64,000 nucleotides of DNA, taken from contig FCNA01000129.1 of the NCBI GenBank assembly GCA_900018345.1, positions 1 to 64,000 of the forward strand, given 5' to 3'. The notes under the pieces are model-generated. The model did no database searches, was not told the origin of the DNA, and saw only the letters and a list, made by a program, of their open reading frames with translations. The translations under genes and the position numbers were made by a program. Each line of letters starts with the position of its first letter. Position 1 is the stretch's first letter. Source of the DNA: Clostridiales bacterium CHKCI006 (GTDB taxonomy: Bacteria; Bacillota_I; Bacilli_A; Erysipelotrichales; Coprobacillaceae). Of the stretch, positions 50,546 through 58,949 are shown in pieces.

Positions 50546-51496
50546 ATGAAATCCAAATCTAAGTTAGCTTTGATGCTAACCTGTATGCTGATGCTCTCAG
50601 CCTGCCAATCCAGTGATACCCAACAAGGTGCAGCAATCGCAACGATCAATGGGGAAAATATTTCAGCAACCCAGCTCTACGATGAACTGATCAACTCCAG
50701 CACCGGCAGATCGGCCTTCTTTCAGGAAATGATCCGTGAAGTGGTGACGACCAACTTCCCGATTACTGATGCCATGAAAACAGAAGCTGATATTACGATT
50801 GAAAATCTGCAGGATCAATATACCTCATACTATGGATCAGATGGAGAAACTTACTTAACCAATGCACTGACACAATCCGGTTTTGAGGACCTGGATGATT
50901 ACCGTCAGACATTGCTTTATTCCTTCCAGTTACAGGAATTCTTAAACCAATACATTCAGGATCATTTTGATGAGGTGTTCCAGGATTACTATGATACACA
51001 GCATCCTCGCTATGTCAGTCATATTCTGATCTCTATGGACGATCCGGATAATCCAACGGAAGAAGAACAGGCGAAACTCGATGAAGTGCAAAGCCGTTTG
51101 GATGCTGGTGAAGATTTTGCTACCCTGGCCAAAGAATATTCGGATGATACGACAGCCAGCGTAGGCGGTAACTTAGGCATCTGTGACTCCAGTACCTCTT
51201 TTGTGACTGAATTCTTAGACGCTGCCATGGCTTTAGAAGAAGGTCAGATCAGCGGACAGGTCAAGACTGATTATGGTGTTCACTTCATCAAAGTGGATTC
51301 AACAGATGCCGAAACCATGAAAACCGACTATCAGGTCTTAGAAGAACGTCTGCCATCATATGATACCTATATGATCTATCTGGCGATGCAGGATTACAAT
51401 GTAACGATTACTGATGAAACTTTAAAACAGATCTATGATGATCAGCTGCAAAGTTATTTAGACCAGCGTGCAGCTAATCGAGGGGAGGATGCTTAA
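50546..51496 (+). CDS. PrsA-like peptidyl-prolyl isomerase lipoprotein
   Basis: 316 aa. Lipoprotein signal KLALMLTCMLMLSAC with lipobox LSAC (Cys 20), SurA-type N-lobe, then a parvulin domain near 150-250 (RYVSHILISM..., GEDFATLAKEYSDD, GGNLGICDSSTSFVTEFLDAAMALEEGQISGQVKTDYGVHFIKV). Folds exported proteins outside the membrane. AAGGAGG before ATG. Forms an operon with a second, related lipoprotein one base away. Confidence 0.9.
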   Translation: MKSKSKLALMLTCMLMLSACQSSDTQQGAAIATINGENISATQLYDELINSSTGRSAFFQEMIREVVTTNFPITDAMKTEADITIENLQDQYTSYYGSDGETYLTNALTQSGFEDLDDYRQTLLYSFQLQEFLNQYIQDHFDEVFQDYYDTQHPRYVSHILISMDDPDNPTEEEQAKLDEVQSRLDAGEDFATLAKEYSDDTTASVGGNLGICDSSTSFVTEFLDAAMALEEGQISGQVKTDYGVHFIKVDSTDAETMKTDYQVLEERLPSYDTYMIYLAMQDYNVTITDETLKQIYDDQLQSYLDQRAANRGEDA

Positions 51497-51497
51497 G

Positions 51498-52379
51498 ATG
51501 AAAAAAGCAATTGCCGTTATGGCCAGCTTAGCACTGTTGACCGGATGTCAGTCCTCATCCTTTTCCGGACAAGTTGAAAACGGGAGTGAAGTCGTTTTAA
51601 CGAGCAACGATAACCTGAGTCTCACCCGTCAGGAGATCTACGAGACACTGGCCGAGAATTACGGTGCCAATCTGCTTTTGAATCAGGCTCTGCAGATTGC
51701 CAGCCAGCAAGAGGATATTGATGAAGAGGAACTGAATAATCGTGTACAGGAAACCGTAGACAACTACACCTCGATGATGGGCGATGATTTAGACAGCTAC
51801 GCACAGCAGAATTTAGGTTATGATACTTTTGAAGCCTATAAGGAAGACGTTCTTGTCCCAAGTACCCGTCAGCAGATGATGATTGAAAAATACTCGGAAG
51901 ACAATTTTGAAACTTTAGCGACAGAAAACAGCTATCGCAAATTATCATGGATCAAAGTGGCCGACGAAACGACTGCAATGTCCGTCCTGGCTGAATTAAA
52001 CAGTGGAGAAAAAACATTTGCTGAGGCAGTTACCGAATATTCGACAGATACCTCAACATCGAGTTCCGGTGGAGATTTAGGTGTTGTCTCTATTCTTTCC
52101 ACCGATGTCGATTCCTCTATCGCAAATTTGACACCACAATTGACCGCGATCTCACTCTATTCTGTACCGGTCTCTTTAAGTGATGGCAGCTATGCCATTA
52201 TCGATGTGGTTGAAACAGATCCTAACAACATGAAAGAAGAAGTTCTTGAGGATCTTCAGTCAAACGAGACCATTACCTCAGAAGCAGAGGCATATTATTT
52301 AAACAAATATAATTTCCAGGTCAATGAAAAAATATTGGCTGATGCCATTAAAGAAATCGATGAGGATTACCTCTCATAA
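51498..52379 (+). CDS. Second PrsA-like foldase lipoprotein
   Basis: 293 aa. Signal and lipobox LALLTGC (Cys at about 16), followed by serines as in the first copy. A parvulin-like segment near 145-225 keeps GEKTFAEAVTEYSTD and SSSGGDLGVVSI but is shorter and weaker than in the neighbour, so isomerase activity is less certain. ATG 51498 follows GGGGAGGATGCTTAAG and begins one base after the upstream stop; a longer in-frame start inside the previous gene is rejected. Confidence 0.82.
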   Translation: MKKAIAVMASLALLTGCQSSSFSGQVENGSEVVLTSNDNLSLTRQEIYETLAENYGANLLLNQALQIASQQEDIDEEELNNRVQETVDNYTSMMGDDLDSYAQQNLGYDTFEAYKEDVLVPSTRQQMMIEKYSEDNFETLATENSYRKLSWIKVADETTAMSVLAELNSGEKTFAEAVTEYSTDTSTSSSGGDLGVVSILSTDVDSSIANLTPQLTAISLYSVPVSLSDGSYAIIDVVETDPNNMKEEVLEDLQSNETITSEAEAYYLNKYNFQVNEKILADAIKEIDEDYLS

Positions 52380-53787: not shown

Positions 53788-53828
53788 GCTCCCGATAAAC
53801 AATAAGACAACTGTCTATCAGGAGACTA
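53788..53828 (-). terminator. yhaM operon terminator
   Basis: CTCCTGATA/TATCGGGAG (one G-U) stem followed by CTTTTTTTT on the minus strand. Confidence 0.8.
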
Positions 53829-53840
53829 TTCAAAGCATCT

Positions 53841-54779
53841 CTACTTTTCTTTTGGTTTATAAAAACTGCGATTATCCAAAGGAAAGATCCGTTTTGTAAA
53901 ATGACCGGGTTCAACATTCTCTAGCGCTTTATCCAGCATATTGATCTTCGCATCCAGATTATCAATCATATAGATGACCTCTGCCTCACGAATTTGCGGC
54001 AGGACAGGAGAACCAAATTCCATTTTTCCATGATGAGAAAGCACGAGATGTTTTAAGATCGTCACACTTTCACCTTCTAACCCAAGCTCTTTTGCAGCTT
54101 CAGCGACCAGATTGGCGCCAATCGAAATGTGTCCCAACAGTTTTCCTTCCAGCGTATATTCCGGAACGACTGGGCCGCTCAATTCAATGATCTTACCTAG
54201 ATCATGCAATAAGATCCCGCCATACAGAAAATCCTTATTCAACGAGGGATGAATACCACATACTGCCTCTGCCATCTTCAGCATACATAACGTATGGTAG
54301 GCGAGTCCCGACACATATTCATGATGATTGCGCGAAGCTGCCGGATACCGCAGAAACGCTTGCATATGCCTTTCAAAAAGCGTGGAAACGATCAAAGCAA
54401 TGGCCTCATCATTCAGCTGATCAATATAACTTTGCAAGCCTGCTTGCAGCTGTTCCACAGATAAAGGAGATTGCTTCAGATATTGGATCTGCATTTCCGG
54501 ATCCGTCGATACAATATCAATCTTTTCTATTTTTAATTGTAATTCCTCTCCGTAGCGAATGACATCTCCTGTCACCTCAACCACACAACCCATTTTCAAG
54601 CTTTCCACTTGCTCTGGTTTAGCGTTCCAGAGCTTCGCATCGATCGTGCCGGAATCATCCTGCAATACCAGCGTCAGATAGGTCGCTTTATTATTACGTC
54701 CGATCATTACCTGACTGATCAGGCTGGAGAAAGTAATATGATTGTCTCCTGCCTGAAAGGCCTTAATCTTCTTCGTCAA
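53841..54779 (-). CDS. yhaM: 3'-5' exoribonuclease YhaM
   Basis: 312 aa. N-terminal OB-fold (about 10-100: SSLISQVMIGRNNKATYLTLVLQDDSGTIDAKLW) and an HD domain near 160-290 with YHTLCMLKMAE, LLHDLGKI and VLSHHGKMEFGSP, the metal site. Degrades RNA and DNA from 3' ends. TTG start at 54779, 8 nt after AAAGGAG, overlapping the upstream gene by 17 bp; last gene of the glycolipid operon. Confidence 0.92.
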   Translation of the reverse strand: MTKKIKAFQAGDNHITFSSLISQVMIGRNNKATYLTLVLQDDSGTIDAKLWNAKPEQVESLKMGCVVEVTGDVIRYGEELQLKIEKIDIVSTDPEMQIQYLKQSPLSVEQLQAGLQSYIDQLNDEAIALIVSTLFERHMQAFLRYPAASRNHHEYVSGLAYHTLCMLKMAEAVCGIHPSLNKDFLYGGILLHDLGKIIELSGPVVPEYTLEGKLLGHISIGANLVAEAAKELGLEGESVTILKHLVLSHHGKMEFGSPVLPQIREAEVIYMIDNLDAKINMLDKALENVEPGHFTKRIFPLDNRSFYKPKEK

Positions 54780-56757
54780 ATTGATGTCTCCTTTCCATCA
54801 TCGCCGTTTTGATCCAATCGTTTTGGAATCCTTTACGTGCGAGATAACTATAAACATGTGTGTCCAAGGCCTGATCACTATAACGCTTTGCATATTTTTG
54901 ATAGGCTTTTTCCATTTCCTTATGCAATAACTGCTTTTCAAGATCCTCATCTGTTTCAATCGTTACCTGATGCATTGCCTCCTCGATCACATCCTGTTCA
55001 AAACCGTTAGAGAATAAACGGTTGCGAATATTGTGGATCAGTGCGCCATGCGAGCGTGTTCGATTCTGATTAGACAGCTTACGAATCGTTTCCGCCGCAT
55101 TTTCAACTTCTATATCACGCGCATAGTTCTCCCTTAGACTCTCCAAAATATCCTGTGGAATGCCTTTTTCGCGCAGCTTTTGGAGCGCCTTACGGATTCC
55201 CATCCCCATGCGTGAAGCCTTGGCCAAATAATCCTTGGCATAGGCATAATCATCGATGAGATGCTTTTGCTCTAATAAGTGAATGATCATGTCCACATGC
55301 ACTTCATCCAATTCCTCACTACGAGACAGTTTTTCACTCATCTGAGCGCGCGTATAATCACGGCTTGTCAAGTATTTCAAGGCCTTTTTATAGCCTTTTG
55401 ATACAAATTCATAGTCCTTTAATTCTTCCAGACAAGCGCGATCGACCACTTTGCCCTTCTCTAGTTCATACCGCTGAATGATCGGCTCAGGCAAATGCAA
55501 GGACAGATCGATATCATCTGCTTTTAAGACGACATTATACATATGATCATGGCGCTCTGTGATTGAACTTACTTTATAGCTATAATGTTTATGGATGATG
55601 GCCTGTTCATAGACCTGGATCATCTTTTCATAGAATGTCTCACTAGTATATTGGCGGCTATCTATATATGCCTGTTGCTGTAATTGAGAAAAATCCTCAT
55701 GCATCAGACGTTCCACAATATCAGCCAGATCTTTTTCATCTTTGAAGAAATAGCCATTCTCACCATCTTTGATGACCCCTTCGAGGTTTTTATCAAAACG
55801 TGCCAGGACAGGCAAACCTGAAGCCATAGCTTCAATAAAGGTCAGACCCTGGGTCTCCGTGATAGAAGCTGAGACAAAGGCATCACTGACAAAATAATAG
55901 TAAGGAACGAGATCGGCTTTTTTAGGGCCGGCAAAGTAGATCATTTCATCCACCAGCAACGAACTAGCCTGCTCTTTAAGCTCATCGAGGGCTGGGCCGC
56001 CACCGACAATGAGCAGTCTGACCGGCAGATTCTTTTCTTTAAAATATGGCATCGCCTGAATGATGATATCGATACTTTTTTCTGAAGCTACACGCCCTAA
56101 GAAAGTCAGGACAAACTGACCTTCCTGGATGCCGCATTCTTCATAGACTCTAGCTAATTGAACTTGATCGGCATTTTTCTTTTCAAAACGGTCTAATTCC
56201 AGACCTGTCCCAATCACATGGATCTCATTTTCAATCCCGTAAGATTCAAGAATTTCTTTCGTTTTTGTTGAAGGTGCAATCAGTTCTGTACAGTTATCCC
56301 CATAGATACGACTAATTTTAGAAACGACCTTCTTCAACAATGGTTCGGTCGCTTCGATCTTCCCTAAACCAGGAAGATAATGGACATAGTCTTCATACTG
56401 TGTATGATAAGTGTAGACAACAGGGATATTGAGGATCTGAGCGGCAATCTTACCAAAGATACCAACGCTGAATTCAGTCTGAACATGGATCAGATCCAGA
56501 TTTGCCTGACGGATCATCTTCATCGCTTTAGCAGAATAGAAGTTTGCCAGCCGATAATTATAAAGCCATTTCAACTCAATACCGGACAGACGAATGATCT
56601 GACCGTCCTCTTCATAGTTTTCACCTGCACGTACTTCCGTCGTTACCACCAGGACCTCATGACCGTGCTTCATCAGCTCCTTTTTTAAAATATGGGAGGC
56701 TGTAGCCACCCCATTGATATCCGGTAAATATGTATCTGTGAAAATTCCGATTCTCAT
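54763..56757 (-). CDS. GT4 glucosyltransferase fused to RecX
   Basis: 664 aa, one uninterrupted frame. Residues 1-385 form a GT-B glycosyltransferase like monoglucosyl-diacylglycerol synthases of Bacillota/Mollicutes: GIFTDTYLPDINGVATA near 4-20, HTQYEDY, FLGRVASEKSIDIIIQA near 225, and the nucleotide-sugar motif ETQGLTFIEAMASGLPVLA near 305. Residues about 393-664 match full-length Bacillota RecX: a beta-rich head, CLEELKDYEFVSKGYKKALKYLTSRDYTRAQMSEKL, and three-helix repeats with MGIRKALQKLREKGIP and LARKGFQNDWIKTAM. Neighbours are glycolipid genes (4-bp overlap upstream). RecX inhibits RecA; why it is joined here is unknown. Confidence 0.88.
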   Translation of the reverse strand: MRIGIFTDTYLPDINGVATASHILKKELMKHGHEVLVVTTEVRAGENYEEDGQIIRLSGIELKWLYNYRLANFYSAKAMKMIRQANLDLIHVQTEFSVGIFGKIAAQILNIPVVYTYHTQYEDYVHYLPGLGKIEATEPLLKKVVSKISRIYGDNCTELIAPSTKTKEILESYGIENEIHVIGTGLELDRFEKKNADQVQLARVYEECGIQEGQFVLTFLGRVASEKSIDIIIQAMPYFKEKNLPVRLLIVGGGPALDELKEQASSLLVDEMIYFAGPKKADLVPYYYFVSDAFVSASITETQGLTFIEAMASGLPVLARFDKNLEGVIKDGENGYFFKDEKDLADIVERLMHEDFSQLQQQAYIDSRQYTSETFYEKMIQVYEQAIIHKHYSYKVSSITERHDHMYNVVLKADDIDLSLHLPEPIIQRYELEKGKVVDRACLEELKDYEFVSKGYKKALKYLTSRDYTRAQMSEKLSRSEELDEVHVDMIIHLLEQKHLIDDYAYAKDYLAKASRMGMGIRKALQKLREKGIPQDILESLRENYARDIEVENAAETIRKLSNQNRTRSHGALIHNIRNRLFSNGFEQDVIEEAMHQVTIETDEDLEKQLLHKEMEKAYQKYAKRYSDQALDTHVYSYLARKGFQNDWIKTAMMERRHQFDEED

Positions 56758-57794
56758 AATAATTCATCTCCTGTTCGGCGATTGATTTCGCGATTCAAAC
56801 TAAAAGTCAGCCCGCCTGCCAACATCACCAAATAATAGGTTGCAAAGCGCCAGATCAACATACTGGAAGACGCCATGACATTTCCCATGACATAGGAATA
56901 AAGCAAAACATAGGTTGCTTCACTTCCACCGCTCGCACCAGGGATAGGAATGAAGGACGTAATCATATAGATAAAGGCTGAGATTCCTACATAATCAAAG
57001 TATTCTGAGAAAGGCAACGATCTTCCTAATGAAAGCATTGTAAAGAATGGAATGCTGTAGAGGATCGTCAAGCGAATCAGGAATAAAACAAAAATAACGG
57101 CAATCGTTCCCTTATGCTTGGACATGATGCCTAATTCCCGCCGGAAATCTAAAATTTTCTGATCTAAATTCACCTTAGAAACCTCGTAGTTTTTCACAAT
57201 ATGCAACTTATGTCCAATCAGCAATACTGTTCCAGTCAAAAAACGCTGAAAGCGATGTGAGATTGCCCCAAACAGTAAGCCGAAAATAACGACTGCATTG
57301 ATGGCAAATCCAATCAAAGCCAGTGATACGAAGCTGGAAAATTCCGTATAGAATTTATTAAATTTAAAAATCAGGATCAAAAGCGTATAAAAAACCATCG
57401 CAATCTGATAAACGATGAAGTTCATCAGTAAAATGCCAATGCCGCTCGTCGTTTCTACACCCTGTTTTTTAAAGATATAGACCTGGGCAAACTGTCCGCC
57501 ACTTGCAAAAGGTGTGATTCCATTAAAGAAGCCACCAGAAAGCGCATTGACAATTCCTTGTTTTAAACGGTAGGTTTTCTTATAAATTCTGGCAAAGATC
57601 GTTAAGATCAAACCATCAAATAAATAAGGAACGATGGCCAGCAGAATGATGACTATGAGCCAGAAAACATCGATTCCGCCTAGTACCGCCATGATATCCT
57701 GATATTCCCCTCTTAAACTAAAGTAGATCGCAATGATCGCAAAGAGAATGATCCATAAAATGTTCAATGCGTATTTCTTAATGACTCGTTTCAT
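56754..57794 (-). CDS. Flippase-like membrane protein (LPG-synthase TM/UPF0104)
   Basis: 346 aa with about eight helices of the lysylphosphatidylglycerol-synthase membrane domain family (YbhN-like): GGFFNGITPFASGGQFAQVYIFKKQG near 91-116 and SFIPIPGASGGSEATYVLLYSYVMG near 280. No catalytic aminoacyl-transfer domain. Set between two glucosyltransferases with 4-bp overlaps on both sides, it probably moves glycolipids across the membrane (inference). Confidence 0.85.
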   Translation of the reverse strand: MKRVIKKYALNILWIILFAIIAIYFSLRGEYQDIMAVLGGIDVFWLIVIILLAIVPYLFDGLILTIFARIYKKTYRLKQGIVNALSGGFFNGITPFASGGQFAQVYIFKKQGVETTSGIGILLMNFIVYQIAMVFYTLLILIFKFNKFYTEFSSFVSLALIGFAINAVVIFGLLFGAISHRFQRFLTGTVLLIGHKLHIVKNYEVSKVNLDQKILDFRRELGIMSKHKGTIAVIFVLFLIRLTILYSIPFFTMLSLGRSLPFSEYFDYVGISAFIYMITSFIPIPGASGGSEATYVLLYSYVMGNVMASSSMLIWRFATYYLVMLAGGLTFSLNREINRRTGDELL

Positions 57795-58810
57795 AATTCG
57801 GCATCCTTTCTTTCAATCGCCTCCTGATAAACAGCCGCGAGCTGTTCACCAATCGCTTTGAATCCACGCGCCTCCGCTGTTTGATAACCGCATGCACTCA
57901 GATCTGGTAACTGTCCCTCGACCATCTGTGTGATCTTTGCGGCAAATTCGTCTTCTGTGTTAGCCATGTAACAGTTTTTACCATTAAATAACCAACCCTC
58001 ATAAACAGGAATATCTCGCACCAAAACCTTGCATTTGGCAGCCAATGCCTCTAAAACGACGATGCCTTCCGTTTCTTCACGGCTTGGAAAGAAGAAAACA
58101 TCAGAAGACATATAAGCGCCTAGAATAATGTCACCGGAAATATAACCGGGAAGGATCACGTTTTCTGGTTTATTTTCGATCCATTTACGGATATTTCCTG
58201 ACGGCATAGAGAGATTTTTATCCCCAAACCAGATAAAAGTATAATCGGGCAGCCTTTCAGCAACTGCGCAAAAAGTATCAAAGCCTTTGCGCTCAAAAAG
58301 CCAGCCGACCGACATGACCACTTTCTGATCATCGCGCAGCTGAAAATAATCTCTAAAAGCCTGTACCTTTGTCTGATCGTAGGTATAAATGTCAACATCA
58401 ATTCCGTTTGATATAGCATGGACCGGCTTATCAATGCCATATCCTTCAATCAGCTTCTTGGAATACTCTGTTGGCGTAACAATGACATCACCCATTGAAT
58501 AGAGATAAATCAACCATTTTCGCCATAAAGGGGCAATTGTGTTCGAAAAAGCAAAAGAATCACGAAAATCCTCCTCTGTGCTGTGCGCATGATAAACAAT
58601 GGGTTTATTCATTTTTTTGGCATATTTGATTTCCTTCATACTACCAAAGAAAACCGTATTGATATGTAAAACATCGTAATCTTTACAATCATGATCTTTC
58701 GAAAAATCAATATGATTGAGAGTCAGTGCCTTCATCTGATGCTCTAAAGCCTTCCCGATTCCAGACTTGGCAATTCCCTTTTCATTTTCAAAATAAAGTT
58801 TTACTTTCAT
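57791..58810 (-). CDS. GT4 glycosyltransferase, probable diglucosyl-diacylglycerol synthase
   Basis: 339 aa GT-B enzyme. KSGIGKALEHQMKAL near 15-29 resembles the alDGS/CpoA group that adds a second glucose to glucosyl-diacylglycerol. VLHINTVFFGS near 48, AHSTEEDFRDSF near 78, VGWLFERKGFDTF near 185 and SREETEGIVVLEALAAKC near 250. ATG 58810 follows GGTGATATT; the frame extends to 58849 without a ribosome site. First gene of the glycolipid operon with the flippase-like protein, the GT-RecX fusion and yhaM. Confidence 0.82.
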   Translation of the reverse strand: MKVKLYFENEKGIAKSGIGKALEHQMKALTLNHIDFSKDHDCKDYDVLHINTVFFGSMKEIKYAKKMNKPIVYHAHSTEEDFRDSFAFSNTIAPLWRKWLIYLYSMGDVIVTPTEYSKKLIEGYGIDKPVHAISNGIDVDIYTYDQTKVQAFRDYFQLRDDQKVVMSVGWLFERKGFDTFCAVAERLPDYTFIWFGDKNLSMPSGNIRKWIENKPENVILPGYISGDIILGAYMSSDVFFFPSREETEGIVVLEALAAKCKVLVRDIPVYEGWLFNGKNCYMANTEDEFAAKITQMVEGQLPDLSACGYQTAEARGFKAIGEQLAAVYQEAIERKDAEL

Positions 58811-58916
58811 AATATCACCATTTCTATTATACAAAAAAACACGATTCAATGAAAGTAAAAAGAAGCCGATTTCACATTCTTTAAAAAATACTAAGAATTT
58901 CTTTAAGCTTTTTTAG

Positions 58917-58949
58917 AGAAAAAAGGCCACTGATCAAATCAGTGACCTT
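58917..58949 (-). terminator. nifJ terminator
   Basis: AAGGTCACTGAT/ATCAGTGGCCTT hairpin followed by T6 on the minus strand. Confidence 0.85.

Follow-up and report, generated by a model that had tools for sequence, protein, structure and literature searches.

The window, a 64,000-nucleotide stretch of DNA from Clostridiales bacterium CHKCI006, exhibits a four-gene operon on the minus strand (Table 1). The gene order is an IagA/BgsA-family glycosyltransferase, with a likely ATG start at 58810, a flippase-like membrane protein, a fusion of a GT4 glycosyltransferase (GT) with RecX, and last a YhaM-like exoribonuclease; successive genes overlap by 4, 4 and 17 nt. The first-pass annotation had placed the fusion in a glycolipid operon, beside a flippase-like protein and a second glycosyltransferase. 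The PF03706, TIGR00374 and NF053513 matches agree with this setting, and by family resemblance the operon is of the glycolipid type (lipoteichoic-acid anchor). Elsewhere in the window (50546-52379, plus strand), two tandem genes for PrsA-type foldase lipoprotein-like proteins (peptidyl-prolyl isomerase-like) are followed by a HIT-family gene, as judged from their translations.

Table 1. Features of the operon that carries the GT4-RecX fusion
Feature	Position	Strand	Remarks
Terminator-like hairpin after yhaM	53789..53824	-	15 pairs and T-run
YhaM-like 3'-5' exoribonuclease	53841..54779	-	PF01966 and PF01336; PRK13480 381.7 bits, cut-off 460
GT4-RecX fusion	54763..56757	-	ATG at 56757; 664 aa; no internal stop
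RecX half, residues 393-664	54766..55581	-	Beta-strand head and three three-helix domains
GT4 half, residues 1-391	55585..56757	-	PF13439 and PF00534; alpha-monoglucosyl-diacylglycerol-synthase-like
Flippase-like membrane protein (LPG_synthase_TM)	56754..57794	-	PF03706 124.8 bits; TIGR00374 over cut-off
IagA/BgsA-family LTA-glycolipid-anchor glycosyltransferase	57791..58849	-	NF053513 483.6 bits, cut-off 460
Terminator-like hairpin of upstream gene, 5' limit of operon	58923..58949	-	12 pairs and T-run

The in-frame fusion and its domain limits are as the first-pass annotation had claimed. A single frame of 664 codons carries five Pfam matches over gathering score: Glyco_transf_4 (residues 14-190) and Glycos_transf_1 (209-360) in the larger half, then RecX_HTH1 (456-481), HTH2 (502-539) and HTH3 (609-653). 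The latter three score 47.7 (PF21982), 26.6 (PF02631) and 37.9 bits (PF21981), each against a gathering score of 26, as expected of a three-domain RecX. The best NCBIfam profile for the GT half is the alpha-monoglucosyl-DAG synthase NF049988 (residues 1-389, 258.3 bits, below its cut-off of 400). For the RecX half it is PRK14135 (residues 400-657), with 169.1 bits against an equivalog cut-off of 240 that is passed in none of the 295 genomes sampled in Erysipelotrichales.

The RecX half matches the solved RecX structures 3d5l and 3e3v. Since the alignment with 3d5l spans residues 403-606, the N-terminal head of RecX is included, and the claim of a full-length RecX stands. A structure search with the fusion returned the GT-B fold and GT4 enzymes for the larger half; RecX is absent among the 50 matches listed, all of which are matches to that half. 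The two catalytic glutamates of the E301-x7-E309 motif, expected of a GT-B GT4 enzyme, are invariant in 31 alignment rows. In the AlphaFold model (41-row alignment, mean pLDDT 88.7), the C-terminal helix of the GT (372-391) leads through about one residue directly into the beta-strand head of RecX from residue 393, and the joint region is modelled with high confidence. The pTM of 0.63 is moderate, and the relative placement of the two halves is not fixed by the model. Neither in the model nor among 81 fused proteins was a variable, disordered or flexible linker seen at the joint.

RecX usually occurs as a free protein that regulates DNA repair. Compared with RecX of the Bacillus subtilis YfhG type (264 aa), the fused RecX shares the head and the three three-helix domains. 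It differs in lacking its own start, in invariably forming the C-terminal portion of a GT4 frame rather than a separate small cytosolic protein, and in having no LexA-type box that we could find. The GT half resembles in its turn the alpha-monoglucosyldiacylglycerol synthases (MGS/BgsB-type GT4): it is a full-length GT-B GT4 enzyme with the invariant E-x7-E motif, adjoining a second glucosyltransferase of the IagA/BgsA family and a flippase-like protein. It differs from them in scoring below the NCBIfam equivalog cut-off and in carrying RecX at its C-terminus. From this homology and the IagA/BgsA neighbour, we predict that the GT half is a lipid glucosyltransferase acting on UDP-glucose and diacylglycerol; the RecX half is likewise predicted to control RecA filaments. 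We found no earlier description of a GT-RecX fusion in our search, which covered papers rather than the domain listings of public databases.

The fusion holds the only RecX of its genome. No separate recX, the presence of which the first-pass annotation had proposed to check, was found in the whole 3.33 Mb assembly (estimated 98.75% complete), in which the RecA gene is present. In the same genome no match to LexA exceeds the curated cut-off. Two short matches to the peptidase domain and weak N-terminal ones are all that there is, and SOS control of the usual kind may thus be absent or modified.

In an even, high-quality sample, 53 of 57 Erysipelotrichales genomes carry the full-length fused frame, which is absent from all 335 genomes sampled elsewhere in the phylum. 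The class sample likewise contains no fusion outside this order. Four Erysipelotrichales genomes lack the full fused frame: G043 has no close GT, the GT frame of G082 comprises 342 aa and lies close to the end of a contig, and G062 and G072 yielded no candidate. In the family of the window, 42 of 43 genomes yield a single RecX match each, nearly always within a frame of about 660-690 aa; the exceptions are G001, where the frame is broken inside the GT, and G007, where the contig ends. The fusion is found in Massilimicrobiota, Thomasclavelia, Sharpea, Erysipelothrix tonsillarum, Bulleidia extructa, Breznakia, Amedibacillus dolichus, Traorella and Lactimicrobium. The first-pass annotation had held that separate genes in relatives, together with a stop codon here, would speak against the fusion. 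Within the order this is not what is seen: the genes are separate in outgroup orders, which show the state before the fusion, and in a few nested re-splits. Some genomes of the window's family carry, besides the fusion, a second GT copy without RecX (G022:C89:57431-58582 and G021:C130:31968-33143).

The outgroups indicate what preceded the fusion. At 14 loci of outgroup Bacilli, the order flippase-GT-recX-yhaM is conserved wherever the contig reaches, and GT and recX are separate, overlapping frames. Here the GT sequence terminates with VYKRAIRRKW-stop or nearly so. The start codon of recX, frequently GTG, lies upstream of this stop codon and in a different frame, and its strong ribosome-binding site is located inside the GT gene. 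These gene pairs of other Bacilli orders thus share with the window the gene families and the neighbourhood of flippase and yhaM, but they make two proteins, recX having its own ribosome-binding site and start. The operon neighbourhood is therefore older than the fusion. Because the two genes overlap out of frame in the outgroup operon, we propose that they were fused by a frame change within the overlap. The joint spacing (window residues 375-397) is 22 residues in all 81 distinct fused proteins, an identity that suggests a single origin of the fusion.

Phylogenetic trees of concatenated GT, RecX and YhaM (120 and 50 rows) place every outgroup locus outside the clade of the order. The re-split loci L052, L053 and L056, as well as a 12-row clade without GT, are nested with high support inside the fused clade. 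The deepest unfused members of the order, L157 and L154, have a weak placement, either before the fusion or as re-splits. The trees are most simply read as a single fusion with a few later splits; given the position of these two loci, there may instead have been two fusions. The unfused frames in L154, L157 and G001 could also be sequencing errors. At L154:6172-6203 and L157:6145-6227, the difference between unfused and fused frames lies near A runs at the joint, consistent with a re-split, a sequencing error or slippage.

Several lineages have parted with one half or with the joint. The 12-row clade (g23) has kept RecX and YhaM with no GT alongside; at locus L041 only a GT remnant precedes RecX; and in one re-split subclade GT and recX are in overlapping frames, one of them by ATGA. 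Conversely, G114 exhibits a close GT whose sequence stops at the joint, in another gene context and with no RecX. In L057 (2446-4325; G001, a single-contig genome), a frame change interrupts the GT half, and what remains of the GT forms an open frame of 429 aa together with RecX; the interruption may be genuine or may reflect an error of long reads. At L058:2761-3918 (G084), RecX is extended at its N-terminus by about 115 residues without a match to the GT. Genomes G062 and G072, without either half, were considered as cases of linked loss, which would speak for coupling; they were left uncounted because no search returned any candidates from them. The halves being separable in evolution, the joint is not obligatory, though an advantage in the majority of lineages would still be compatible with these data.

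Strong purifying selection acts on both halves, with dN/dS between close relatives of 0.01-0.19 for RecX and 0.03-0.14 for the GT. The ratio of RecX to YhaM divergence rates is 1.60-1.69 in fused lineages and 1.62 in unfused outgroups, and 2.6 in the GT-less clade. The near equality of the former two implies that the fusion has neither relaxed nor tightened the constraint on RecX.

We regard it as probable that the frame is a true bifunctional fusion, fixed long ago, of neighbouring genes that overlapped and were coupled, and that each half keeps its own job. The ancestor of Erysipelotrichales would have possessed a glycolipid operon of flippase, GT4, recX and yhaM. The final stretch of its GT gene would have contained the start of recX, out of frame, and translation of recX would presumably have been coupled to that of the GT. 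A frame change in the overlap would then have abolished the GT stop, merging the two proteins into one. Since then RecX would have been made solely as the C-terminal half of a protein of about 76 kDa, the N-terminal half of which would be a peripheral-membrane glucosyltransferase of the UDP-glucose:diacylglycerol type. The one half would catalyse the first step of glycolipid synthesis and the other would control RecA filaments; the abundance of RecX would be fixed to that of the enzyme, and RecX would probably lie at the inner membrane face. The later re-splits and losses of the GT half suggest a fusion that is tolerated and not required. The sequences themselves show the fusion, its distribution, the overlap in the ancestral state, the lost internal start and the constraint on the two halves; both activities, the membrane location and the absence of proteolysis are predicted here from homology.

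The fused chain might instead be a precursor cleaved at the joint into free GT and free RecX, the fusion merely equalising their amounts. The nested lineages with separate genes or RecX alone presumably have a functional free RecX. With RecA filaments on the nucleoid, where B. subtilis RecX forms foci (PMC3527212), and a GT that should reside at the membrane, release would also be favoured. However, the joint, where a helix passes over a single residue into a strand, is confidently modelled, has the same spacing in 81 of 81 proteins and contains no variable or disordered linker, and we consider cleavage rather unlikely.

Another possibility is functional coupling: RecX would be tethered to the glycolipid enzyme in order to link recombination control with the state of the membrane, for example at sites of DNA uptake or division. 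Polar RecX foci have been observed in competent B. subtilis cells (PMC3527212). That almost the whole of a deep order has retained the fusion, with conserved halves and a fixed geometry, would also fit, as would the operon neighbourhood that predates it. Against this, the 12-row clade has RecX with no adjacent GT, G114 has a GT ending at the junction with no RecX, one clade has re-split the genes, and RecX evolves relative to YhaM no slower than in unfused outgroups. Sequences resembling the LexA-type box GAAC-N4-GTTC (at most one mismatch) occur in chance numbers only, with none at the operon start, and SOS control of the operon was accordingly rejected. The suggestion of the first-pass annotation that glycolipid production is tied to DNA damage thus finds no support: there is no such box, no LexA over the cut-off, and the halves are lost independently. 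We judge functional coupling quite improbable. To the wider proposition, that the RecX of a whole order is a membrane-tethered RecA regulator joined to the first glycolipid enzyme, with recombination control at or tuned by the membrane, we give little credence.

A third alternative is an internal translation start yielding free RecX besides the fusion. It is suggested by the outgroup recX genes, whose starts and strong ribosome-binding sites lie within the GT gene, and by an in-frame ATG near codon 405 in the window. We scored the best in-frame start near the joint of each of 81 fused genes for anti-Shine-Dalgarno pairing. The mean energy is -3.2 kcal/mol at the junction, -2.6 in control windows of the same genes and -9.8 at the true GT starts; separate recX starts average -6.0 overall and reach about -6 to -13 in outgroups. 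Junctions are barely better than controls (15% vs 11% at or below -6 kcal/mol), and the ATG in the window scores -2.1. These scores contradict the earlier idea of two proteins, as far as internal initiation is concerned, and make this alternative very improbable. The ancestral ribosome-binding site and start of recX are gone in the fused genes, and RecX is therefore expected to be made only as the tail of the fusion. Finally, an artefact joining two genes, conceivable in a draft assembly of 164 contigs, is of negligible probability because the same frame recurs in dozens of independent genomes, isolates and MAGs from two families, single-contig genomes included.

An order that includes common gut bacteria thus seems to produce RecX solely as the C-terminal portion of a lipid enzyme. 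The annotation, deletion and localisation of recX change accordingly in these organisms, where removing recX would also hit glycolipids. The locus further provides a clean natural example of overlapping genes that fuse and are later split again. A candidate for convergence in f8, another Bacilli family, proved to be a different fusion and not GT-RecX: at L200:1147-3099 (G386), and also in G540 and G350, the GT frames of about 650 aa consist of an alpha/beta-hydrolase-like N-terminal half followed by a GT4 of the same family.
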